36,535 nucleotides of DNA. It comes from Chlorobiota bacterium. GTDB taxonomy: Bacteria; Bacteroidota; Ignavibacteria; Kapaibacteriales; NICIL-2. The position numbers and the translations under genes were made by a program. Each line of letters begins with the position of its first letter. Position 1 is the first letter of the stretch. This document shows positions 1,424-29,803 of the stretch, one piece after another. The notes beneath the pieces are model-generated. The model saw only the letters and a program-made list of their open reading frames with translations. It was not told the origin of the DNA and ran no database searches. The DNA lies in the NCBI GenBank assembly GCA_026415505.1, contig JAOAGY010000024.1, forward strand, positions 1 to 36,535, written 5' to 3'.

Positions 1424-2335
1424 TCACATTCGCTGCATGCTTGCCTCGTACAATCGATCGGCAAGCGCGGTGATCGTCTCGCCGAGGGCGAGTTTGCTGA
1501 GCCACGACGATGGGATTTGACCGATGCCCCAATAGGCACCGGCAATCTGTCCGCAGACTGCCGCGGCGGTGTCCGAATCCCAACCGAGATTGGCAGCCGC
1601 CAACACCGCATCGCGGAACGAATCGGCATGGACGAAACACCACAGCGCCGCTTCCAGCGTGTCCACGACGTAGCCGGTGCTGCGGATTTCCGGGTTCGAC
1701 TTGTTCCAATACTCCCCGCGTGCGATCGCCACGATCTTTTCGGCGCCCTCGAACGTGTCGCGATCGCCGAGCACGACTTCTTCTTTGGGCAGTCCCTGCA
1801 ACGCACGATGAATGATCCGCGCCAGCAAGCGGCAGGCATCGAGACACTCGCGCGTGCCGTGCGTGGTGCGGGAGCTTTCCACCGCGTAGTGCTCGGTCGC
1901 TTCGAGATCGGGAAAGTAGAACAGCGGGATCGGCGCCAACCGCATGATGCAGCCGTTGCCGGCGGTGTTTGGATCGCTCGAACCGGCATACGGATCGTCT
2001 GTCTGCCGGTATCGCTGCAGCGACGCCATGACGGTGCGACCTTTGTCGAAACTGTAGCCGGTGCTGCTCATGTAGCCGGTCTCGACCCAGCGCCAGTAGC
2101 GTTCCATCTGGTCCCGAGCGTCGAAACCGTCGAGCTCGACCAGACTGGCTGCCAGACACAGCGCCATCGAGGTGTCGTCGGTCCACTGTCCGGGTTGCAG
2201 GTCGAAGACGCCACCGCCGACCATGTCGTCGATCGGTTCCAGTGTCCAGCGGCTTTGGGACATGTTGGTCGCTCCCAGCGCATCGCCGACAGCGAGCCCA
2301 CAAAGGCAACCACGATAGCGATCACGGAGGTCCAT
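1424..2335 (-). CDS. ADP-ribosylglycohydrolase (DraG) family protein
   Basis: This is a 303-aa cytoplasmic enzyme of the ADP-ribosylglycohydrolase fold, which removes ADP-ribose from proteins or related substrates using a binuclear Mg centre. Residues 5-21 carry the family start (DRYRGCLCGLAVGDALG). W51-T52-D53-D54-T55 matches the first metal-binding motif, and G-W-D253-S-D255-T256 near the C-terminus matches the second. A central GNGCIMRLAPIPL segment is also typical. Length is normal for the family and the metal ligands look intact, so it is probably active. ATG 2335 was preferred over ATGs at 2341 and 2392 because AAGGA lies five bases before it and family homology begins there. A TACTTTTG (TAnnTTTG type) lies at 2397-2390, but no upstream element is clear. 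The substrate cannot be read. The neighbouring divergent gene at 2735 is a candidate functional partner. Confidence 0.88.
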   Translation of the reverse strand: MDLRDRYRGCLCGLAVGDALGATNMSQSRWTLEPIDDMVGGGVFDLQPGQWTDDTSMALCLAASLVELDGFDARDQMERYWRWVETGYMSSTGYSFDKGRTVMASLQRYRQTDDPYAGSSDPNTAGNGCIMRLAPIPLFYFPDLEATEHYAVESSRTTHGTRECLDACRLLARIIHRALQGLPKEEVVLGDRDTFEGAEKIVAIARGEYWNKSNPEIRSTGYVVDTLEAALWCFVHADSFRDAVLAAANLGWDSDTAAAVCGQIAGAYWGIGQIPSSWLSKLALGETITALADRLYEASMQRM

Positions 2336-2734
2336 AACCATCCTTAGTGATGACGACAACCATTCGGTATGCTGAGATTGAGCGTCAGGCAAAAGTAGGT
2401 CGAACTATTCCCTCCACAGCACCGGGAATGCGATCGCACCATGACAAAAATAGCTTCGCCGACACATGAACGAACGATTCTTCATTTTCCTTCTCGGAGA
2501 AGTTGCAGGGGCAGTTCATCGCATAATCGTTGTTCGGCGGAGCTCATTTGTGGCAGCGAGCAGAGTTCTGTTGCGGTTGGTATGAAACACAATTGGGCTA
2601 ACCCTCGACGGGAAAAAATGGGGAATTTTTTTTCGATGTTGTCCGCGATCGGCAAACGAATTTCGCTGCAAATATCGGCTCGTGAGAGTCCGCGGCAAAG
2701 TGTGAAAACATCGGAACACTCTGTGGTGTGAAAA
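2336..2734. other. AT-richer intergenic region between divergent genes
   Basis: This 399-bp spacer separates the DraG-like gene (minus) from the 572-aa gene (plus) and is visibly richer in A/T than the flanks, with runs such as the T tract near 2627-2634. A perfect odd palindrome, CTTCTC-G-GAGAAG, lies at 2490-2502 and could be an operator. I see no convincing gene; short open frames here lack family-like composition. Promoters for both flanking genes should lie here. Confidence 0.5.
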
Positions 2735-4453
2735 ATGGAAGTCAATGCAAAAGCAGCGTACGAAAAGTACTTTGGGCAAGAGAGACAACGCGTGCCGCTG
2801 TGGGATACAGCCGTTGTGCTGAATAGACAACAGAAAGACGGCAAGTACAAACTAACAGCAGAAACTACGCTGGCTGGCGGTCACAGACAGCGACCGCGTT
2901 CTGCGCAAGAACAATTCGAGTTGGATGTGGCGTTCTGGTACGGTGCACTTACCGAAGGTAAACACGAAGAAATCGAGTTGCTCCGGCGTGTCTTCACGAT
3001 ACTCTACTACGGCGGATTGCTTTACTACGGTAGCAGCGGTTGGGATCAATGGTCGCGCAGCAACATTCCCATTGCGGCAGCGCTCTCGCATGGCGGACGG
3101 GTGCTGATCCAGCTTCCAAGAGCAAGCAGTGGTGAGCCGGATGCTTTCTTCCGTTGGCTCCAGGCACCGAGCGGTATTATCAGCCGCAACTCACGACTTG
3201 CAGCCACACACGGGATCGAGCCGTTCGCCGTACCCATTCCCCTTCGCGGGCTGCACCGATGGCATCGTCTCAACGAGACCAAAAGCGGAGGGAATGGGCG
3301 TCATTACGGTGTCAACATCAGCTTGGGTGGAACCGGAAACATCAATCCAATTTCGGGCAATACAATCGCCTCCAACGGTGAGCATGGACATCTCTACGTG
3401 TACTATCTGGCTCCGACGGCAGACAGCTATGGAGGACTACTCATCGGGCTTGAAGGCTCCGCACCGATCGATGCCTGGGATAATCGTGGTTTAGGACACA
3501 CGCCCGGCTCGCCCCAGCGGTTGGGAAAGCTCGGCGGAGGCGCCTATGGGGCTGTGGCGTGGTCGAAAGACCACTTGCCGAAGAAAATGGGAGGCGGTCC
3601 AGAATTGTTCACACCCGACCAGACCGGAGGATACCACAAATTCGGTGCGCGGCAGAAGTACAGCCCGACGGGGAATGCCAAATGGAACGAGCTCGATGTC
3701 GGGCCGCGGCGCATCTATAACGCAATGCTCGTCGATCTTGCTGAACTTGGGTGGGAAAGTGTCGCTGCCCAATTGAGCGTATTCACACCGGAATTATTGG
3801 GCAAATGTGGCGTTTCTCCTATAGTGCCGCCCCCAGTCCAAATGCCGCCGATAATCCTCACAACGTCCTTGATCGAATCGAATCTCAAAAGGTTGGCAAC
3901 CGTCGTCGAGGAGATCAGCGAGGACATGGCAACGCTGCGATCGGGAAACTCGCCGATGGTCAAAGATTATAACGCTACCCCAAAGACCAAACGACCGATT
4001 GTCACGCTCGGATTGCGAAAAGTCAAAGATTACCATACCGAGAAACCCGTCGAAAGGATGAATCCACGAGTCGCGCAATATGCGCACGATGCAATTCTGA
4101 GCAAAGAACCGATGGACAGCATGACATGGCAAAAGTTCAGCAGCATTCGCTTGGGGAACCGATCGCTGCTGCACACCGTGGACGCTGTCGTTGATGAATG
4201 CTTGCGCTTGACCGCTCGCGAAATCAGGCTGTGCCGTCAATTACAGATTGTGGGTGGCAATAACGATTACGCCGATCGAGCAATTGCCGAACGTCGCAAA
4301 AAACTGTTGGAGCTTGTCCAGGCGATCACGCGCTACCTCGACTTGCCTCAAGCAAGATCGGATAAGCATACTCCCAAGGTCAAAGCGCTCCATGCGCTCG
4401 TGTTGACCGAACTGAAACTGCTCGATGAGGCAAAACACGCTCTCAAGCACTGA
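2735..4453 (+). CDS. Uncharacterised 572-aa protein with glycine-rich GEHGH-LYVYY core
   Basis: I do not recognise this protein with certainty. It has no signal peptide and no clear membrane segment. Residues 60-180 are mixed alpha/beta with an aromatic patch (ILYYGGLLYYGSSGWDQWSR). Residues 192-325 form a compact-looking, glycine- and histidine-rich core: VNISLGGTGNINPISGNTI, then NGEHGHLYVYYLAP, GGLLIGLEGSAPIDAWDN, and a KYSPTGNAKWNELDVGP end. Residues 375-572 are hydrophilic and predicted mostly helical, with many charged residues. Such a conserved-looking core with a separate helical tail is common in effector or toxin-like proteins, but this is inference. Base composition here and upstream is more A/T-rich than the neighbours, suggesting transfer. 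ATG 2735 has only a weak Shine-Dalgarno (GGTGTG). It stands alone, divergent from the DraG-like gene. Confidence 0.8.
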   Translation: MEVNAKAAYEKYFGQERQRVPLWDTAVVLNRQQKDGKYKLTAETTLAGGHRQRPRSAQEQFELDVAFWYGALTEGKHEEIELLRRVFTILYYGGLLYYGSSGWDQWSRSNIPIAAALSHGGRVLIQLPRASSGEPDAFFRWLQAPSGIISRNSRLAATHGIEPFAVPIPLRGLHRWHRLNETKSGGNGRHYGVNISLGGTGNINPISGNTIASNGEHGHLYVYYLAPTADSYGGLLIGLEGSAPIDAWDNRGLGHTPGSPQRLGKLGGGAYGAVAWSKDHLPKKMGGGPELFTPDQTGGYHKFGARQKYSPTGNAKWNELDVGPRRIYNAMLVDLAELGWESVAAQLSVFTPELLGKCGVSPIVPPPVQMPPIILTTSLIESNLKRLATVVEEISEDMATLRSGNSPMVKDYNATPKTKRPIVTLGLRKVKDYHTEKPVERMNPRVAQYAHDAILSKEPMDSMTWQKFSSIRLGNRSLLHTVDAVVDECLRLTAREIRLCRQLQIVGGNNDYADRAIAERRKKLLELVQAITRYLDLPQARSDKHTPKVKALHALVLTELKLLDEAKHALKH

Positions 4454-18934: not shown

Positions 18935-21900
18935 TCACCGTCCGCCGCTGATCGAGATGCGGAGTTCGACGCCGACTTCGGTCACGCTGAAACCGGGATT
19001 GGAAGCGCCGGTGGTGAACTCGCCGTTGTAGCGGAAAAAGGCTGTCGCCGTCACCAAGCGGCTCAGCGTGTAGCGCGCTCGCGGTTCGATGAGGATCGAG
19101 CGCCGCCCGTCCACTTCGGTGCCGTTGCCGGTCTGTTGGGCGTCGCGTCGCTCGCCGAGCAAGAATGCACGACGGCTCGATGCGCGGTAGGAGGCGATGA
19201 ACGAAAACTCGACGTCGTTTTTCAGCTCGATGCCCAACAGCGGGAAGCTGAATCCCCGCAGCGCGTAGTTGGCGTTGAGCGCCAGTTCGTTCTGTACTTC
19301 TTCGGTCAGCGTGCGTGCCGATGCGGCGATGCTGTAGTTGGTGCGCGTGTTGTAGCGAAGGTTCGCCGTCAGTAGCCCTTTGAGCTTTTTCTCGTCGAAC
19401 GAAAAGATCGCGCCCACCAGCGGTTGGAACTGCATCTGAACGGTTTGCGCATTGACCACGCGCCCGTTGTCGGTCGTGTAGGCGCTTTCGGAGTAGAGCG
19501 TCTGGTACGAGTGCTCCAGCGTGATGCGTTGCGCGAACTTTTCGAGCAGCCAGAATTTCTCGATGCCTTCCCACCGAAGCGACCAATTGACCTGCGGCAA
19601 GTATCGCTGCAAGACACCCGGCAAAAATTCGAACGCTTGCAATCCCGAAATGAACGCATCGGTCATGGCGTTCTGCAACGCCATCTGTTCGGCGATCGAA
19701 AGCGAGTCTTCGTTTTTGGTGCCGATGATCTGCGCTCGAAGCTGGCGATAACGCTCGACGACCGTTTCGGGGCGATTGTTGAAGCCAGCCAGAAAGAGCC
19801 AGTACGGCGCCGAGAGAAACGTCCGCTGGTACTGCTCGCTGAGCGTGACGTTGGTGAACGTCATCGCTCCTTGGGCATCGGTCGTGGTCAGTTGATTGCG
19901 GTTGATGCCGAACTGTGTGCGCCAGTTCAGTTCGAGCGTGGCGCCTTTCCAGAGCGGACGTGTGGTGCGGATTTCCAGTCCGGTTTGCTGCGAGATGTTG
20001 TCCTGGAACTGCGCGTTCGGCGGACGGATGCCGTAGTCTTCCCAGAACTGCACGAAGGGGAAACGTCCGGTCAAACGTGCGCCGATGCTCGCGTGCGGAT
20101 AGCGCACCAATCCGAGCTGGTAGGCTGCCGATGGTCCAAGAAGGAGCTCGCTGCCGCGTCCGGTCAGCATGCGTCCCCACAGGTTGCTGACGCCAGTGCC
20201 GCCGAACGCACCGGGTGTATTGGCGGTGTTGTTTTGCGTGAAGCTCAGCGTCACTTGCTGGTAGTCGAAAAAGATCGAACGCAGCACATCGAGCACATCG
20301 CCGAGCACGCTCGAACTTTTCGCTGTTGTGTCGCGCTGACCCGGGCGCTGCTGCGCTGGCGGTGTGATGCCGAACCACGCGTTGCTCATCGCTTGGAGCC
20401 GGAGATTGGCGTTCCAGCGAATCGTGTTGTTGTAGCTGACCTGCTTGACGGCGTCGCGCAGACGGGGATCGGGCTGAAGCGGATCGTTCCACGAATAGGT
20501 CGTCGTGAACGTGCCCGACAGGTCCAAAAAGCGGTTGAGATTGCCGATGTTCGGCAGCAGCGGTCGGAACGTCAGTGTGGTCGTCTGTTGCACCGATGTC
20601 GGCGTGCCGAAGTCGATCCAGCGATCGTTGTTGAAGAACATCTGGCGAACGATCTCCGAGCCGGTGCGTTGCCGTCCGAACGGATCGAGTTCGAGCGGCA
20701 CGAGCGTATTGGTTTGCGAGAGCTGATAGTCGAGCATCGGCGAGAGCAAGCCGCCTTCGGTGAACTTCCACTGCAGCGAGGCGGAGTTGGTCGCCGTGAA
20801 TCCCCGTTCGACCGGCGAGGGGAACGGCAGAAACCACGATTGTTCGGTCCGCCGATAGCGGGACAGCCGCGTCGAAAACGAGATGTTCTGCGGCAACAAG
20901 TTGATTTTCCAGCCGGCGTAGGTGTCCAGCAGCGGAATGCCGCTCATCCAGCCGCCGAGCGACAGTTGCGCCAACGTCGCCGGCAGCGGTAGCGAATACT
21001 GCGCCGTGAAATCCCACTGCCAGCGGAAACGTTCGGCATAGACGGGCGATTGCTCGGCTTCCTGGGCATAAGAGTAGCCGAGCACCAAGCGATTGAGCGT
21101 CTCGCGCACCAACCACAGCGACGTCGGAATGCCGAAGCGAAAGCCGAGGATGCTCCACTGCAACTGTGCGATGCGCGTGCGTGCGCGACGGCGGACGTAG
21201 TCGGCGCGATCGAGCGCTTCCTGCTGCGTTCCGCCAGATGAGAGCACGCTGTTATACGCCATCATCGCAGCTTCTTCGATGTTGACGTCGCTTTGCGCGG
21301 CGAAGATGGGTGTCCGCTCGCGAACCGTGCGCGTCAGTGCGAAGGGAATGCGAGCGTCTTTCCAGTCTTTCGGCAGGAATTTTTCCATGCCGAGTTCGAG
21401 CGTGAAGGTGAAATCGCGAGACTGCTCGCGCGTGCCGAAGCGCTCTTCGAGGCGGTGGAAGAAGGGGTTGGCTTGGGTGTACGCTGTGCGAATGGCGCCC
21501 AAGTCGGCGAGCTTGACGTCGAGATTGGCAGTGGCTGCCCAATCGGTGCGGGCGTCGGGTTCGACCAAGCGCAGCTCGTCAGCCCAAATCGTCGTGCTGA
21601 GCGCTTGCGGACAGCGCTCGCGCGGATTGGCGATGCCGATCGAAATGAACATCACGCGCGTCAGCAGCGGATTGCCCTGAATGGCAAAGCGTGCCAGCGG
21701 CTCGCCAGGCACGGGATAGGTGACGCGCTGCCACTGCATCATGCTGTCGCGCTGTGCTTTGAGTGCCGCCAGTGTCTGGAGCGGAATCGAGACGTTGCGC
21801 CATTGACGCACGATCGGCGCGCGGTACTCGTAGTAATTGGCGGTGTCGATGCCGAAGCGGATGAAAAATTGCGGTGCGGCAGTGTCGCCGGGAGTCAGAA

Positions 21901-24900
21901 AGAGCGAGTCGGGCGGAACGTAGTCCTGACCGCCGACGCCTTTGATGAACACCTTCAGCGAGCGGTAGTAGAAAAAGTCCATCGGGCGGAAGAGAAAGCG
22001 TGTGGCTTTGCGCTCGTCGCCGCACTGGAGATTGGTCACGCCGATCGCCAGCGATTGCTCGTTGAGCAGGATGTCGTTTTGAAAGTCGGGATTGGCAAGG
22101 TTCCGCGGCGGCTGCACACCCGGCGGCATGGTGTAGTAGTCGGGCGGACCGGCGTTCTCTTCGCGATTGACGAACGAAACACGAACGACCGTGTCGTTGG
22201 CGACGGCGCTGTTTTGCACTTGCGCATAGTTGACGCGCTGCCACTGCGAGCCGACGAATCGCCAATCGGCGATCGAAACTTTGATGCGCCCGCCCTTGAA
22301 CCAGACGCGCACATACTGGATGTTCGAAAACAGCGGATTGCCGACGATGCGCTTTGCCCCGCGCAGCGGAATGCGGTAGAGTCGCCACCCGTTGGTGCCA
22401 CCGCCGACGACTTGGGGATTGGCGTCCGATGGATCGAGATTGACTTCGTAGCTGAAATAGCTGTCGTCGAGCGAGATGGTTTGTCCGTTCTGTTTGTTGA
22501 GCACTTCGGTGTCGGGGAACTGCCCCAGTTCCGATTGCGAGGCGTTGCCTTCGTAGTTGTTCCACTGCACGAAGTCTTGGTCAACTTGCTGCTCGTTTGG
22601 TTTGGTGAAGTTGAAAAAGTAATCGTCGCGCGATGGGTCGCTTTCGAGGTTGAGCGGATACGGGTATGCAGCACGTTCGCCGGCATTGTCGAGCGCGTCA
22701 ATGCCGACGTCCTCGCCGGGGTCGATACGTCCGTTGGGGATGGGAGCGCCGGCAGTGATGCCGTCTTCGGTGTTGAGCCGGTAGTTCGGAATGATGTCTT
22801 CGCTGATTTGCCCCAAGTCGATGAACATGCGCGCACCGGGCTCGCGATCCTCGATGCGCATCATGATGTCGATGAAGTCGATGTTTTCCAGGTCGAAGTT
22901 CGAATTGAACGTCGAGATCAGCCGTTGCATGCCTGCCCAGAGGCGTTCGCGGTTGGCTGGGCGCTGCTGCCAGGGATTGATCTTGACCGAGTCCCATCGA
23001 GGATTGAGCGTGTCGATGTAGTCGGGGTTGGGGTTGTAGATACCGCGCCGATCGGGATCGAAGGTAATCACCAGCGGCGAAATGCGCGATTGCCCCTGAA
23101 CGGTTTGGCGATTGGGATAGACTTCGGCGATCGGCACGCGCGGCAAAAAGAAGTTGTACCAGTAGAGCTTGCCGCGGTAGAGCGCCCGCCGCTCGTGTTG
23201 TGAGTCAATTGTCGAATCAACGGGCGGCGATGAGTGTGTCCAGAGTGTGCTTGTCAAGCCCATCGAGATGAAGCGTTGCGCACCTTCGAAATCGTCGATG
23301 TAGGCGGCAGCTTGGTTGTTGTCGACGGGGATTTCCGAGATGCGTTTGTTCGGCGTCGGCATTTGCTGTGCCCATTCGCCGCGGAAGGTGATCGTCGAGT
23401 GCTCTTTGGTGCTGTAGAACGGCAGCCAGTTGAGCGCATCGGTGAGCCATTGTGCGTTCCAGTTCAGATTGGCGTCGAAACCGAGCATCGTGTTCGAGAT
23501 CGGCTCTTCGCCGAGGCGGACGCGATCGACGAGTGCAGCGGTGCTGAAATTCATCAGCGTGCTGCCGAGCGTCAGTGTTGCGTTGCGTGTACGCGAGAGC
23601 ACCAGGTCGGCACGCATTCCCAGCAGCGTGCGCGTTTGGATGTTCATCACGTCGTTCGATTCGTACTCGATGACCAGATCGCTGCCGGCTGCTTGCGCCT
23701 GTGGATTGCGAATGCTGACGATGCCCGAGTAGTAGTCCACGACATAGTCGTCGTTTTCGCGGAGTTGGCGTCCGCTCAAATACACACGCACACTGCCTGG
23801 GGCGACATACGGTCCGAGCGTGATACGACCGGCTGATTGCCCTTGTACATCGCCGATGATGAGCCAGCGATCCTGTGCGGTCTGCTGTTGAGCGAGGGCT
23901 TTTTGTACGTCATAGACAGCGCTGTAATAGTACTGCTTTGCCAGCGCAGGATTGCCGCGGCGTGCGAATGCCGAATCCAAGCCTTCCCGAAACGGTTCGA
24001 TCCAAGGGAAGATGATTTCGCCCCGTACCGCGTTGAAATAGGGACTGCCAGTGGCGAACTGTTGTTGCTGTCCGGGGAGCGTCCCTTGTCCTGGTGTAAA
24101 GCCAGCACCGGCTTGCTGCTGAGCTGGCGGTGCGCCGCCGGTAAAGTCGAACAAACCGTCGCCCGGTGGTTGTCCTGTTGCGTTGTTGACGCGGTCCACG
24201 CCGAGAGCTGTGACGAGCTTGTCGGATGTACCGTCGAGAATGTCGGTCGAGTCGTTATTGGTGCGCAGGTAGTAGATGTTGATCCGTGCATCTTGGGTCG
24301 AGACATTTGTCGCGTTGATGAAGTAGATGTTGCGCATTTGCCGCGCCCACAGGTTCGTAAAACCGGGCTGCAGATTCGGTCGGTAGATGAGCTTCAAGAT
24401 GAGCGTGTCGCCGTCTTTGGCGGTCGCCGAAAGCGTGCCGTGATAGAGGTCGTCGTCTTTCGAGGGCGAATCTCCTTCGGTGCGATAGGCGACGGCATAG
24501 GTACGGTCGCGACGGAATCCCCAGATGTCGAGCGTGCCGAGATTGGGGTTGAACGTAAAGCGCGATGGATCGAGTCGCACGAAGCGTCCGCGCTCGACCT
24601 TGCCCTGTTCGATGCGAACGGTCGGGCTTTTCATTGCTGCCGGATACCGCTCGCCTTGCGCAAAACGAATCGGCGAGAGCGTGTCGTAGGCGATGACCTC
24701 GATGCCGCCGACGGCTTGATCGCGGACGTCGGCGGTGCTTTCGTACACCTCGATTTCCTTGACCAGGAGCGGTCCGGCGGGAACCGGTACGGGTGTCGTC
24801 AGTTGCCAATACTGCCGATAGAGCCGCTTGTAAGCGGTGTCGAGGAAGTAGTGGTTTTCGGCGTAGTCGTAAGCGCGGAGCGCGAAGCTTGTCCGTGCAC

Positions 24901-25813
24901 TACCGCTGTTGGCACGGAGAATACGGCGATCGGCGCGGCGTTGGGCACCGATCGTTTTCAGATAGAGCGGACCGAACTGGAAATCGGCTCGTGCGCCGAA
25001 GAGAGCCTGCGATCCGCTGATGAACGTGCTCGTCGTCGGCAGTTGCACATTGCCCAGCTCGACGAGTTTGACGATGTCGTCGTCGTAGCCTTCGTAGCCG
25101 ATCTTGAAACGATTGTCGAATTCGAATTGACGCATCGTGTTCCAGTCGGTGCCGAGCCGGAATTTGTCGCCAATGCGTGCGCTAACGTTGAGTTGGATGT
25201 TCTGCGAAAACAGCGGCGCCGATTGACTCTGTCCGAACGCACTCGATGCTCCCAGGTTCTGCGAGTCCCATCGCCAGCCGGCGCGCAGATTGACCTCGCC
25301 GTTGACGGTGATGCTGATCTCCGGTTTGCCGAAAATCGTCGTCAGCGGATTCGGCGGCAGAGGAATCGAAATACCCGACGATTGCGAGAGCAGCTTTGCA
25401 AGGTTTCCACCGCTGAGCGCTCGTTTGAGATCGTAGCTGGTCGAGAGCGAATCCCACAGTTGCCGGCTGGTCTGGCGCCGGCGCTCGGCAAGGTATGCAT
25501 CGAGTTCGACGTAGCGCGGGAGCGAGACATCCGTGCCGCCGATCTGCTCGCGAATTTGGACGGTTCCGCTGGAGTCGAGCTGTCGGAGAATCTCCAATCC
25601 TGACGGACGACGACGAGCCAGTCCAGTGCTGTCCCCATACCGCAATGGAGTACGTCGCATCGGTCGGACGGTATCGGGAGGCGCTGTCCATCGTAGGTGT
25701 GCGTTGCTGCGCAGGGTAAACGCACACATGCTGCCGATTGCACATGCAATCCCGATGAGTGCACATGCCGCTCGACACGCGATCGTCGCCGAATTGTACG
25801 CGGATCGGTTCAC
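18935..25813 (-). CDS. sprA: Type IX secretion translocon protein SprA
   Basis: This 2292-aa protein is SprA (called Sov in Porphyromonas), the giant outer-membrane barrel through which CTD-tagged cargo leaves the cell in the type IX system, and which gliding species need for motility. Length is close to the usual 2300-2500. An export signal is likely in residues 1-40 (hydrophobic CALIGIACAIGSMCAF). The N-terminal third has the SprA-like run LPPNPLTTIFGKPEISITVNGEVNLRAGW with NIQLNVSARIGDKFRLGTDWNT. The rest has many barrel strands and conserved phrases such as YIDDFEGAQRFISMG. It ends in the beta-rich EVGVELRISISGGR. The initiator appears to be GTG 25813 without a strong ribosome binding site, so the exact N-terminus is uncertain. 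It ends six bases from the convergent cargo gene. No other T9SS component is in the window. Confidence 0.95.
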   Translation of the reverse strand: MNRSAYNSATIACRAACALIGIACAIGSMCAFTLRSNAHLRWTAPPDTVRPMRRTPLRYGDSTGLARRRPSGLEILRQLDSSGTVQIREQIGGTDVSLPRYVELDAYLAERRRQTSRQLWDSLSTSYDLKRALSGGNLAKLLSQSSGISIPLPPNPLTTIFGKPEISITVNGEVNLRAGWRWDSQNLGASSAFGQSQSAPLFSQNIQLNVSARIGDKFRLGTDWNTMRQFEFDNRFKIGYEGYDDDIVKLVELGNVQLPTTSTFISGSQALFGARADFQFGPLYLKTIGAQRRADRRILRANSGSARTSFALRAYDYAENHYFLDTAYKRLYRQYWQLTTPVPVPAGPLLVKEIEVYESTADVRDQAVGGIEVIAYDTLSPIRFAQGERYPAAMKSPTVRIEQGKVERGRFVRLDPSRFTFNPNLGTLDIWGFRRDRTYAVAYRTEGDSPSKDDDLYHGTLSATAKDGDTLILKLIYRPNLQPGFTNLWARQMRNIYFINATNVSTQDARINIYYLRTNNDSTDILDGTSDKLVTALGVDRVNNATGQPPGDGLFDFTGGAPPAQQQAGAGFTPGQGTLPGQQQQFATGSPYFNAVRGEIIFPWIEPFREGLDSAFARRGNPALAKQYYYSAVYDVQKALAQQQTAQDRWLIIGDVQGQSAGRITLGPYVAPGSVRVYLSGRQLRENDDYVVDYYSGIVSIRNPQAQAAGSDLVIEYESNDVMNIQTRTLLGMRADLVLSRTRNATLTLGSTLMNFSTAALVDRVRLGEEPISNTMLGFDANLNWNAQWLTDALNWLPFYSTKEHSTITFRGEWAQQMPTPNKRISEIPVDNNQAAAYIDDFEGAQRFISMGLTSTLWTHSSPPVDSTIDSQHERRALYRGKLYWYNFFLPRVPIAEVYPNRQTVQGQSRISPLVITFDPDRRGIYNPNPDYIDTLNPRWDSVKINPWQQRPANRERLWAGMQRLISTFNSNFDLENIDFIDIMMRIEDREPGARMFIDLGQISEDIIPNYRLNTEDGITAGAPIPNGRIDPGEDVGIDALDNAGERAAYPYPLNLESDPSRDDYFFNFTKPNEQQVDQDFVQWNNYEGNASQSELGQFPDTEVLNKQNGQTISLDDSYFSYEVNLDPSDANPQVVGGGTNGWRLYRIPLRGAKRIVGNPLFSNIQYVRVWFKGGRIKVSIADWRFVGSQWQRVNYAQVQNSAVANDTVVRVSFVNREENAGPPDYYTMPPGVQPPRNLANPDFQNDILLNEQSLAIGVTNLQCGDERKATRFLFRPMDFFYYRSLKVFIKGVGGQDYVPPDSLFLTPGDTAAPQFFIRFGIDTANYYEYRAPIVRQWRNVSIPLQTLAALKAQRDSMMQWQRVTYPVPGEPLARFAIQGNPLLTRVMFISIGIANPRERCPQALSTTIWADELRLVEPDARTDWAATANLDVKLADLGAIRTAYTQANPFFHRLEERFGTREQSRDFTFTLELGMEKFLPKDWKDARIPFALTRTVRERTPIFAAQSDVNIEEAAMMAYNSVLSSGGTQQEALDRADYVRRRARTRIAQLQWSILGFRFGIPTSLWLVRETLNRLVLGYSYAQEAEQSPVYAERFRWQWDFTAQYSLPLPATLAQLSLGGWMSGIPLLDTYAGWKINLLPQNISFSTRLSRYRRTEQSWFLPFPSPVERGFTATNSASLQWKFTEGGLLSPMLDYQLSQTNTLVPLELDPFGRQRTGSEIVRQMFFNNDRWIDFGTPTSVQQTTTLTFRPLLPNIGNLNRFLDLSGTFTTTYSWNDPLQPDPRLRDAVKQVSYNNTIRWNANLRLQAMSNAWFGITPPAQQRPGQRDTTAKSSSVLGDVLDVLRSIFFDYQQVTLSFTQNNTANTPGAFGGTGVSNLWGRMLTGRGSELLLGPSAAYQLGLVRYPHASIGARLTGRFPFVQFWEDYGIRPPNAQFQDNISQQTGLEIRTTRPLWKGATLELNWRTQFGINRNQLTTTDAQGAMTFTNVTLSEQYQRTFLSAPYWLFLAGFNNRPETVVERYRQLRAQIIGTKNEDSLSIAEQMALQNAMTDAFISGLQAFEFLPGVLQRYLPQVNWSLRWEGIEKFWLLEKFAQRITLEHSYQTLYSESAYTTDNGRVVNAQTVQMQFQPLVGAIFSFDEKKLKGLLTANLRYNTRTNYSIAASARTLTEEVQNELALNANYALRGFSFPLLGIELKNDVEFSFIASYRASSRRAFLLGERRDAQQTGNGTEVDGRRSILIEPRARYTLSRLVTATAFFRYNGEFTTGASNPGFSVTEVGVELRISISGGR

Positions 25814-26158: not shown

Positions 26159-28660
26159 GTGAACATCGTCGGCATACTTACAACGATGATTGCGGTCTGC
26201 GTTGCGATTGCAGCGCAAACCGATATCGGGCTATGGCGATCGAACACACGTGTCGGCATACCGCTCGGCGGGCAGTGGCAATGTTCGCTCGACGGCGGTC
26301 GTTCGTGGCGATCAGTCGCATTGCCGTACGTCGAGCTCGATCCGCCGAAGCGGATGCTCTATCGCAAGACGCTTTATCTCGACAGCAACGCGCTCAAACG
26401 CGGGTGGCAACTTTCTTTCGACGGTGTGCGTGATGCTGTCGAGGTGACGATCAACGGGCAGTACATCGGTCGGCTGTTCAGTGGTCAAGTGCCGATCGTG
26501 GTGACGTTGCCTTCGCGGGTACTCCATGCCGGTCACAACACGATCGAACTGGCGGCAGTGCCGTCCTCGGACGAGGCTCTCCTTCAATATCGCATGCAGT
26601 GGCGTTCACCATGGCGACCGATCGGGATTGTCCGTCCGATTTCGCTGGTGGGGAGCACTCCTGTTTTCATCGAACATGCGACGATCGAGCAACACACTGC
26701 CGCCGATCGTGCCCACATCAGAGTGACCGCATACGTGGCGTGCCAGCAGCAAGGAGCGCAGCGTGCGATGTCGGTGCGCGCGACGATTCTCCGCGGCGGC
26801 GCAACAGTAGCGACCGCGGCGACTCCGCTTGTGCCGATCGTTGACCGACAGTTGCCGGTGACGGTCGAACTCGACGTTGCCTCACCGCAACACTGGTCGC
26901 CGCAATCACCGGAGCTGTACGATCTCCGAGTGGAATTGATCGCCGACGGCGCCGTTGCCGATGACCTCTCCCGCAGCATTGCATTCCGGCGTATCGAGCC
27001 AGCTTCGGGCAGCGGTCGAGTGCTCGTGCTCGATGGCGTGCCTCTGTCGTTGCGTGGTGTCGTGTACGTGGACCAATGGATGCGCAACGACGACGGCACG
27101 CTCCGTCCGCCCGATTACGAGCGCGATGTGCGGTTACTGCAGCAATTGGGCGTCAATGTCGTGTACTGTGCGTGGCTGCCGCCGTCGCCGCGTTTTGTGG
27201 AGCTGTGCAGTCACGCGGGAATACTCGTGCTGCTCGATGTACCGTTCGGCGATATACCGGCGCGGTACTTTAGCCAAGAGGAATTGCCCGCCCGCGCACA
27301 GAACATGGCAATACGTCTGCGTGACGCCTATGCGGGAGCACCGAGTGTCGTTGGCTGCGTTTTAGCATCCAACCTCGACTACGGGAGTGCTGCTGTGCGG
27401 GAGTATGTCGGCGCAATTGGTGCACTGGTGCGACAACAACAGTGGTTGCGTGTGGTGTCCGTTCCTGCTGGGCACACGCTGCCGGATGGTCTGCCGAGCG
27501 ATGCGGTGCTCGTTAGCGACGATATCCTCGCGCACGGGAGGCGGCACGAGCAAAAGCAATACTTCGAGCGAACCATCGGCTCGCTACGCCAGCCGTGGAT
27601 GCTCGTCGGCGGTTCGCTTGTGCAACCGTGGAACCGCAACGGTTATGCCGATCCGCTTTCGGTCGAGGGACAAGCCGAGTATGTCAGCCAACTCTATCGT
27701 CTGGCGACCGAGCTGGGTTCGGCTGGTATCGTCATCCGCACTCTGAACGATTACATGTCGGTCTATCCGGTGCTGACGACGAATGCGGGCGAGCAGGGTG
27801 TGTGTTCGGAAGGATTGGTCAATTTGTCCAGGCAACACCGGCTGGCATTCGAGCTTGTGCGGGCGCTCAACACCGGTGAAACCGCACCGTTGCTCCAGCC
27901 AGGTAGCTACGATCCGGGTACACCATACGTGTTGCTGGGGGGCGGTCTGGGCGGTGTCTTGTTGGTATTCTGGTTGCTCAATCGCTCGCGACGTTTTCGC
28001 CAGTACGTGCTACGGTCTCTGATCCATCCGCACAACTTTTTTACCGATGTCCGCGATCAGCGGATCTTGATGCAGGGGCAAACATTGCTGCTGGCTCTGG
28101 CGATCGCTTTGACCTATGCGCTCGTGCTGGGAACGCTTTTTTACGTCACGCGTCACGATCCGGCTGCCGATTACTTGAGCAATCTGTTGACGCTCTCGCC
28201 CCAGGGCAAAGCGCTCTATATTCAGCTTGCATGGTCGCCCGAACTGGCGGTGACGGTCGTTCTGCTTGTGGTGCTGGTCAAAATCGTCGCTCTTGCTCTC
28301 GTGTTGCGGGGCATAGCTGCACTCACCGATCGAACGGTGCTGTTCGCCGATGCGCTGACGATGGTCGTGTGGTCGCTCATTCCGATTGTTCTTTTCCTGC
28401 CGCTGGCGGCTGTACTGTTCCGCTTGCTGACGATGACTCCACCGATCTTGTGGTTTGCAGTGCTCGGTGTGGTGACCATCTGGAGCATTGCGCGGCTGCT
28501 GCGTGCAGTGACGATTGTTTTCGAAGCGCCGCCACTGCTTGTCTATTCGATCGGTGTCGGTAGTATCGCCGCCGTCGGTGGTATTGTGCTCGGTATTCTC
28601 CAGCTCCAAACGGCGCTGGTTACCTATCTGGGGCATTTCGTGACGCTGTTTTTCCCGTAA
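26159..28660 (+). CDS. Glycoside hydrolase family 2-like protein without catalytic glutamates, fused to a C-terminal membrane domain
   Basis: This 833-aa protein starts with a short hydrophobic leader (residues 2-20). Residues 25-165 resemble the GH2 jelly-roll sugar-binding domain (LDGGRSWRSVALPY, RMLYRKTLYL, LSFDGVRDAVEVTINGQYIGR, HNTIELA). Residues 170-280 resemble the Ig-like domain (SPQSPELYDLRVEL). Residues 290-570 resemble the TIM barrel (PLSLRGVVYVDQW, DYERDVRLLQQLGVNVVYCAWLPPSPRFVELCSHAGILVLLDVP, GIVIRTLNDYMS). The acid/base site has S-N-L (404-406) where GNE is expected, and the nucleophile strand reads QPWMLVGGSLV with no glutamate. A helix at 590-607 and about five more between 640 and 825 give a Yip1-like membrane region. 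The probable form is an extracytoplasmic pseudo-glycosidase sensor or scaffold. The GTG start is tentative; ATG 26186 is the alternative. No sugar enzymes are adjacent. Confidence 0.75.
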   Translation: MNIVGILTTMIAVCVAIAAQTDIGLWRSNTRVGIPLGGQWQCSLDGGRSWRSVALPYVELDPPKRMLYRKTLYLDSNALKRGWQLSFDGVRDAVEVTINGQYIGRLFSGQVPIVVTLPSRVLHAGHNTIELAAVPSSDEALLQYRMQWRSPWRPIGIVRPISLVGSTPVFIEHATIEQHTAADRAHIRVTAYVACQQQGAQRAMSVRATILRGGATVATAATPLVPIVDRQLPVTVELDVASPQHWSPQSPELYDLRVELIADGAVADDLSRSIAFRRIEPASGSGRVLVLDGVPLSLRGVVYVDQWMRNDDGTLRPPDYERDVRLLQQLGVNVVYCAWLPPSPRFVELCSHAGILVLLDVPFGDIPARYFSQEELPARAQNMAIRLRDAYAGAPSVVGCVLASNLDYGSAAVREYVGAIGALVRQQQWLRVVSVPAGHTLPDGLPSDAVLVSDDILAHGRRHEQKQYFERTIGSLRQPWMLVGGSLVQPWNRNGYADPLSVEGQAEYVSQLYRLATELGSAGIVIRTLNDYMSVYPVLTTNAGEQGVCSEGLVNLSRQHRLAFELVRALNTGETAPLLQPGSYDPGTPYVLLGGGLGGVLLVFWLLNRSRRFRQYVLRSLIHPHNFFTDVRDQRILMQGQTLLLALAIALTYALVLGTLFYVTRHDPAADYLSNLLTLSPQGKALYIQLAWSPELAVTVVLLVVLVKIVALALVLRGIAALTDRTVLFADALTMVVWSLIPIVLFLPLAAVLFRLLTMTPPILWFAVLGVVTIWSIARLLRAVTIVFEAPPLLVYSIGVGSIAAVGGIVLGILQLQTALVTYLGHFVTLFFP

Positions 28661-28717: not shown

Positions 28718-29803
28718 ATGAACGCGCTCCACACACGAGCACCGACGGTGCGGCGTGCCGAACTCGACCTGAGCGAACGTGAACAGGTCATCCTCCGTGC
28801 AATCGTGCAGGCGTACGTGCTCCGTGCGGCGCCGATTGGCTCGCATACGCTGGCGAGGATGCTGGCGCGAACGCTACGACTGTCGCCGGCGACGATCCGC
28901 AACGTGATGGCTGATCTGGAAGACCGCGGCTACATCACGCATCCGCACACGTCCGCCGGACGTATCCCGACCGACAAAGGCTATCGGCTCTACGTGGATT
29001 ACCTGATGCAGCAGGGGCGGCTCAGTCAGCGCGAAGAACAAACGCTGCGCGCCAATCTTGCCAGCGTCAGCGGCGAGCTGGCGCTCCGCACTGCTTCGCG
29101 TATCCTCGGCGAATTGTCGCATCTGCTCGGAGTCGCACAACTGCCGAGCTTGCGCGATTTGGTCGTCCGTCGCGTCGAGCTGGTGCCGCTGTCGTCGCAG
29201 CGATTCGCTGTCGTTGTCGATCTCGATTCGGACGTCGTTCGCACGATCACGCTCGAAACCGACGTCGAACTCGAACCTGTTCAGTTGCAGCAGCTCTCGC
29301 AATTGCTCAACGAACGACTCTCGGGACGCACGCTCGATTTTGTGCGCCAGAACTTCGCTTTGCTCATGCGGGATCGGCTCAGCCATCCTGTGTTGCGTGT
29401 CTTTGCCGACTCGATAGACGTCCTCTTTGCGCAGCACGAAAGTCAACGCGTCTTTATCGCCGGTGCTCAGCAGTTGGTACAACAGCCCGAATTTTCGTCT
29501 CCCGAGCGTTTTCGTGCCGTCATCGAATTGCTCGAAAACGAGGAGATGATCATTCACCTGCTCGAGGGGACCAGTGATACCGAGCCGTATGGGGTGCAAA
29601 TCAAAATCGGCTCGGAATTGGGGGACCGACAATTGAACGAGTACGCATTGATCGCGACGCGGTACCGGCTCGGTTCGGCATCCTATGCGATCGGTGTCGT
29701 CGGACCCAAGCGCATGAACTACGCCAAAATGATGACGCTCGTCGGGGAAGTCGCATCGTTGCTGGCGCATCAGAACGAACCTCGCTCTGGCGCCGAACGA
29801 TGA
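28718..29803 (+). CDS. hrcA: Heat-inducible transcription repressor HrcA
   Basis: This 361-aa protein is a cytoplasmic repressor that binds CIRCE operators ahead of chaperone genes and is released on heat shock when GroE folding capacity is titrated. The N-terminal winged helix is typical: LSEREQVILRAIVQAYVLRAAPIGSHTLAR, then LSPATIRNVMADLEDRGYITHPHTSAGRIPTDKGYRLYVDYLM at about residues 54-97. The C-terminal dimerisation region has YGVQIKIGSEL and the ending VVGPKRMNYAKMMTLVGEVASLL, as in HrcA. Length is normal. No CIRCE inverted repeat (TTAGCACTC-N9-GAGTGCTAA) was found upstream or elsewhere in the window, and grpE, dnaK and dnaJ are absent. The stop overlaps the start of the ABC ATPase gene (ATGA), so the two are probably co-translated. 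Confidence 0.95.
   Translation: MNALHTRAPTVRRAELDLSEREQVILRAIVQAYVLRAAPIGSHTLARMLARTLRLSPATIRNVMADLEDRGYITHPHTSAGRIPTDKGYRLYVDYLMQQGRLSQREEQTLRANLASVSGELALRTASRILGELSHLLGVAQLPSLRDLVVRRVELVPLSSQRFAVVVDLDSDVVRTITLETDVELEPVQLQQLSQLLNERLSGRTLDFVRQNFALLMRDRLSHPVLRVFADSIDVLFAQHESQRVFIAGAQQLVQQPEFSSPERFRAVIELLENEEMIIHLLEGTSDTEPYGVQIKIGSELGDRQLNEYALIATRYRLGSASYAIGVVGPKRMNYAKMMTLVGEVASLLAHQNEPRSGAER

Follow-up and report, generated by a model that had tools for sequence, protein, structure and literature searches.

A GH2-derived pseudoenzyme fused to a six-helix membrane domain in Ignavibacteria and further families of Bacteroidota

We analysed a stretch of 36,535 nucleotides from a Chlorobiota bacterium (class Ignavibacteria, order Kapaibacteriales; contig JAOAGY010000024.1), referred to here as the window. 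The gene under study, at 26159-28660, is a single uninterrupted reading frame of 833 codons. Its start codon is uncertain, being either GTG or an in-frame ATG at 26189. The features of this gene and its two neighbours are listed below.

26159..28660, + strand: whole gene, encoding a signal peptide, a pseudo-GH2 part and a six-helix membrane domain (833 aa, GTG start)
26159..26218, + strand: N-terminal hydrophobic segment, probable signal peptide, residues 1-20 (hydropathy)
26249..26659, + strand: GH2 N-terminal sugar-binding-like sandwich domain, approximately residues 31-167 (PF02837; profile match to solved GH2)
26663..26989, + strand: GH2 immunoglobulin-like domain, residues 169-277 (PF00703)
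27026..27838, + strand: GH2 TIM-barrel domain, approximately residues 290-560 (partial PF02836; full-length profile match)
27371..27373, + strand: position of the acid/base glutamate, here N405 (alignment)
27605..27607, + strand: position of the nucleophile glutamate, here V483 (alignment)
27641..27676, + strand: family-specific motif G495...S501...Q505-A506, just after the former nucleophile strand (alignment)
27923..28657, + strand: six-helix membrane domain, residues 589-833 (hydropathy)
27986..28066, + strand: predicted cytosolic loop RRFR...RPxNFFxDxRDQR between helices 1 and 2, with the highest conservation
28013..28597, + strand: match to Yip1 (PF04893; Pfam)
18935..25813, - strand: upstream neighbour, sprA-like (T9SS translocon SprA), divergent
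28718..29803, + strand: downstream neighbour, hrcA

The window protein matched PF02837 (E 8e-9), PF00703 (E 5e-13) and part of PF02836 (E 1e-3), and the three-domain GH2 sequence signature was present. Searched alone against solved structures, it matched GH2 beta-galactosidases (E 3e-19), while a family profile of 37 homologues matched 8dhe (E 2e-64) over profile positions 45-619, covering all three GH2 domains. Domain order and signature are common to the family and to GH2 enzymes of the beta-glucuronidase/beta-galactosidase type (8dhe, 5uj6 and 6d8k; E ~1e-64). These Pfam matches and the profile alignment bear out the original prediction that all three domains can be traced. The roughly six C-terminal hydrophobic helices that it described were also recovered, since simple hydropathy called 5-8 segments and the region matched Yip1 (E 1e-6, above the Pfam cut-off). 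Membrane orientation was derived from hydropathy and the signal peptide. A structure prediction from three sequences (the window protein, L032 and L033) reached a mean pLDDT of only 46, too low for a usable model.

Lineages are given as codes where needed (f, family; g, genus; G, genome; L, locus). We considered whether a sequencing error or frameshift had joined two separate genes. The gene is in three pieces in a genome of the same genus (G004:C1:1992485-1994922), through decay of the gene or through errors in the assembly of this one-contig genome. However, the same fusion is one open frame in nearly all other genomes, and an artefact can for practical purposes be ruled out.

We then compared the catalytic positions of the window protein with those of GH2 enzymes. 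The acid/base segment GNE was replaced by ASN (N405, equivalent to E461 of LacZ), and the nucleophile segment SEYG by LVGG (V483, equivalent to E537 of LacZ). It had been proposed that the acid/base "NE" reads "NL"; the absence of the glutamate is confirmed at N405, whereas the residue pairing was one residue off. The nucleophile glutamate is indeed gone from the MLVGGSLV strand, where its position aligns to V483. Both glutamates are thus missing from the window protein, in agreement with the earlier claim, and as far as sequence can tell catalysis has almost certainly been lost.

As controls we used 21 ordinary GH2 proteins, 20 from the same phylum and one from Amphibacillus, and both glutamates were present in all of them (21/21). 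Among 113 aligned long (full-length) forms from more than 30 families, both glutamates were absent in 80, only the nucleophile was kept in 18, only the acid/base in 14, and both in one, so that the acid/base glutamate occurred in 15/113 and the nucleophile in 19/113. None of 35 aligned short forms, described below, had either. The sugar-contacting positions of the pocket decayed together with the glutamates in the long-form alignment: the equivalents of H391, N460 and W568 were found in 12, 14 and 37 of the 113 long forms, respectively, versus 21/21 controls each. The scaffold residues W40, P56, N99, G156, W246, P251, Y254, G354, D531 and G552, in turn, are as conserved as in active enzymes, indicating that the GH2 fold is retained, as had been expected. 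Compared with GH2 enzymes, the family thus lacks the catalytic glutamates and pocket residues and adds a six-helix membrane fusion. It is of GH2 ancestry, yet falls outside the catalytic definition of GH2.

These alignments also bear on whether the protein could still be an enzyme, with moved catalytic residues or a changed mechanism, acting for example on a cell-envelope glycan. The glutamates kept in some long forms and the acidic residues lying near the lost positions in many members would fit such activity. However, no acidic residue is conserved at either catalytic position, the equivalents of H391, N460 and W568 decay together, and the short forms have neither glutamate. We therefore consider continued catalysis very unlikely for the family. 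The single long form with both glutamates, G103 of family f23 (L054:409-3078 and L130:7909-10578), also has an HYPP motif and is possibly an active membrane-bound GH2 inside the pseudo-GH2 family.

A quick tree, built without the two catalytic columns, placed the pseudo-GH2 family as one clade on its own side of one branch (SH-aLRT 99), with families mostly grouping as vertical descent predicts. Each catalytic glutamate underwent at least 8 changes within the family, and such counts alone cannot tell gain from loss. Because the controls all have both residues, it is simpler to assume an active ancestor and repeated loss, and we infer an enzyme-first direction of change. The family-specific motif was kept almost throughout the long forms (G495 in 113/113, S501 in 111/113, Q505 in 110/113 and A506 in 103/113) and largely in the short forms (33/35, 25/35, 30/35 and 32/35, respectively); G495 was absent from all 21 controls. 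Since the GH2 scaffold and this motif near the old active site stay conserved, the periplasmic part appears to be under selection.

Of the 61 genomes in the relatives set, 60 had a homologue, as did 188 of the 197 genomes of the class, with one full-length gene per genome, although a few class matches are not long forms (family f19 has the membrane part only, or nothing). Full-length forms outside the class occurred in families f31, f34, f49 and f61. The losses and the fusion, for which a homologue survey had been suggested, both recur across the class and in further families of the phylum, more than chance would give. A contig scan returned one close relative, a Candidatus Kapaibacterium MAG, and one ordinary GH2, and nothing more; NCBI puts Candidatus Kapaibacterium in Bacteroidota, class Eximiradiia. 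In G181 (99% complete) neither smc nor the pseudo-GH2 gene was matched, which may reflect an assembly gap.

A search with the membrane domain alone reached short forms of ~530-580 residues, consisting of a signal peptide, a GH2 barrel remnant and the membrane domain, in about 14 families (weaker in f42). The long-form profile matched them at positions 353-823 in a single match (best E 3e-50), and hhalign of short against long form gave a probability of 100 and E 1e-42 over 499 columns, covering barrel and membrane part. The short-form barrel matched solved GH2 enzymes with a best E of 6e-10, and Pfam assigned no family to five short forms at E 0.01. In genus g36 of family f19, three genomes carry the membrane domain alone as an open frame of ~250-310 residues; in the other f19 genera examined, no remnant of the gene was found upstream of smc. 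The membrane-only genes, all directly upstream of smc, are as follows.

L173:8821-9702, + strand: membrane-only gene of g36
L290:5317-6252, - strand: membrane-only gene of g36
L291:639-1400, + strand: membrane-only gene of g36

Some relatives with the membrane domain have only a shortened GH2 part or none, so the dead GH2 part looks like an accessory prone to erosion, attached to a conserved membrane protein.

Within the family, the first transmembrane helix and the following loop form the most conserved stretch, with 21% of columns at >=80% conservation versus 3-10% elsewhere. As conservation peaks there, in the part remaining after GH2 loss, we read the membrane domain as the core. The membrane domain of the window protein scored 33.0 bits against Yip1 (gathering threshold 28.6) and was also matched in a search of its own genome; 22 of 36 family members matched Yip1 at E 0.01 or better. 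Several hydrophobic helices are common to both, and the window protein adds one leading helix, a large periplasmic pseudo-enzyme and its own conserved loop. Hydropathy of the members mostly gave six or seven segments when the leading helix was counted; the Yip1 fold has five helices. Yip1 membership carries little information on function. Matches of the membrane profile to cytochrome oxidase (E 0.01) were taken as chance hydrophobic matches, and no YidC was found among solved structures searched with this profile; a distant fold relation may remain. DUF4271 (PF14093), a membrane protein of Bacteroidia (L263-L287), was above cut-off only in those families of the phylum where the searches found no GH2-membrane form. 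Its comparison with the family membrane domain gave an hhalign probability of 12% (E 0.0025), and 3 of 36 members matched it (best E 0.0027). DUF4271 is a possible distant Bacteroidia counterpart of the family, to be taken as a lead only.

That the membrane domain is the sole functional unit, in lipid handling or as an insertase-like protein or scaffold, with the GH2 part a dispensable structural leftover, would agree with the membrane-only form beside smc, with the conservation peak in the first helix and loop, and with lipid neighbours in some lineages (pgsA/pgpA-like genes in f42, lpxB and lpxK in the class, MlaC in f50). However, the GH2 scaffold and the new motif are conserved over the class and into the short forms, and we regard this explanation as possible but doubtful.

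The gene neighbourhood was examined in 19-kb loci. The next same-strand gene was smc in 33 of the 38 loci sampled first, and the five exceptions were all in the window's order. With later loci included, smc directly followed the long form in 37/38 loci outside the window's order and 0/13 inside it; the spacing between open frames is no proof of co-transcription with smc. The second-commonest neighbour was lpxB (19/38), and a HAD phosphatase, a PEMT-like methyltransferase, lpxB and lpxK lie further downstream. The same adjacency to smc was seen for the membrane-only form of g36 (3/3 genomes) and the short form of f39 (2/2 loci). In families f50, f54 and f60, ftsZ was directly upstream of the short form in 10 loci, at the end of the division/cell-wall cluster:

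L175:8019-9605, + strand: short form directly behind ftsZ
L179, L226, L227, L229-L231, L233, L238 and L253: further short forms directly behind ftsZ

A DciA-like gene followed the short form in f38 and f59, some of the f42 loci had the short form behind pgsA- and pgpA-like genes, and in f50 MlaC was convergent to the short form. Neighbours vary within the window's order. The smc gene of the genome from which the window comes lies on a separate contig, where its upstream neighbour is divergent. A MalK-like ABC ATPase lies two genes downstream in the window and is not conserved; in both family-f2 loci examined the next gene is related to hrcA, and the order sprA, pseudo-GH2 gene and hrcA-like gene recurs in that family (L146). 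Elsewhere in the window, an ORF at 2735-4453 (+ strand) encodes a domain resembling Ntox11 (PF15521, E 3e-23), and a gene for an ADP-ribosylglycohydrolase lies close by at 1424-2392 (- strand).

The original prediction had proposed a membrane-tethered carbohydrate sensor or receptor, in which the dead GH2 pocket binds sugar and the membrane domain relays a signal. The GH2 fold kept in the long forms and the strongly conserved motif beside the old pocket speak for such a role, and pseudo-glycosidases such as Klotho can act as receptors. However, the sugar-contacting residues have decayed, neither a signalling domain nor conserved sugar-utilisation neighbours were found, the surrounding genes (smc, lpxB, lpxK, ftsZ and hrcA) have housekeeping functions, and relatives have cut back or lost the GH2 part. 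These results do not support the sensor proposal, which we now consider unlikely; the barrel may still have a glycan- or protein-binding role.

Taken from the neighbourhood alone, a housekeeping role in the envelope or cell cycle is most likely, because smc, lipid A genes and the division cluster at its ftsZ end are among the neighbours. The smc link may reflect an ancient operon and say nothing about function, since in the window's order smc is not adjacent and neighbours vary. Our preferred reading, which is tentative (rough probability 0.45), is an inner-membrane protein with a Yip1-like core and a non-catalytic GH2-derived periplasmic module, serving a housekeeping envelope or cell-cycle function. 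Its core would be the six-helix domain with the strongly conserved cytosolic loop, lying in the inner membrane, and the periplasmic part, a former glycoside hydrolase, would serve, if it has any use, in binding or as a structural element, without catalysis; different lineages have kept this part whole, cut it back to the barrel or dropped it. Its contact in the envelope would be peptidoglycan, another glycan or a partner protein, and the membrane domain with its loop would contact a partner in or under the membrane. The domain make-up, the missing glutamates, the single clade, the range of forms and the neighbours can be read from the sequences, whereas for the family protein we infer this membrane orientation, the loss of activity in vitro, the partners and the link to the cell cycle. 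The f23 protein with both glutamates and the several lineages with one count against this reading. A bolder version, a so far unrecognised, phylum-wide membrane factor of chromosome segregation or division in relatives of Bacteroidota, whose dead GH2 part reads or anchors to the cell wall and whose membrane domain relays this to SMC or the FtsZ machinery, seems quite improbable.

Several known systems are comparable. The ectodomain of rBAT/4F2hc is inactive, and in Klotho, which carries GH1 pseudo-glycosidases, dead domains are kept for binding. Klotho differs from the family in being a GH1 protein of animals with a single helix. The rBAT/4F2hc (SLC3) heavy chains have a glucosidase-like ectodomain on a membrane protein and serve complex assembly and trafficking (PMC9110406); they differ in their GH13 fold, single helix, separate transporter subunit and occurrence in animals. 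The P1 domain of YidC is a sugar-enzyme-like periplasmic domain without a sugar-binding motif on a membrane-helix core, and is missing in Oxa1 and SpoIIIJ (PMC8669966), although its fold is galactose-mutarotase-like and not GH2. By analogy, the family would resemble the rBAT/4F2hc and Klotho ectodomains in working and YidC in layout; membership in none of them is indicated. Among the papers searched, none dealt with a GH2-Yip1 fusion and none with GH2 together with pseudoenzyme and beta-galactosidase, and the Melioribacter genome paper and the Chlorobia/Ignavibacteria signature paper mention neither GH2 nor galactosidase.

Reuse of dead sugar enzymes on membrane proteins is known from animals (Klotho, rBAT), and YidC has a comparable domain of unclear role. 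In the bacterial family described here, a series can be traced from full pseudo-enzyme through barrel remnant to no GH2 part, over a conserved membrane core. A GH2 assignment should not place a member of this family among the carbohydrate-degrading enzymes. Should the gene neighbourhood be a guide to function, the family would represent a so far unstudied protein of the envelope or cell cycle in a large, mostly uncultured bacterial group.
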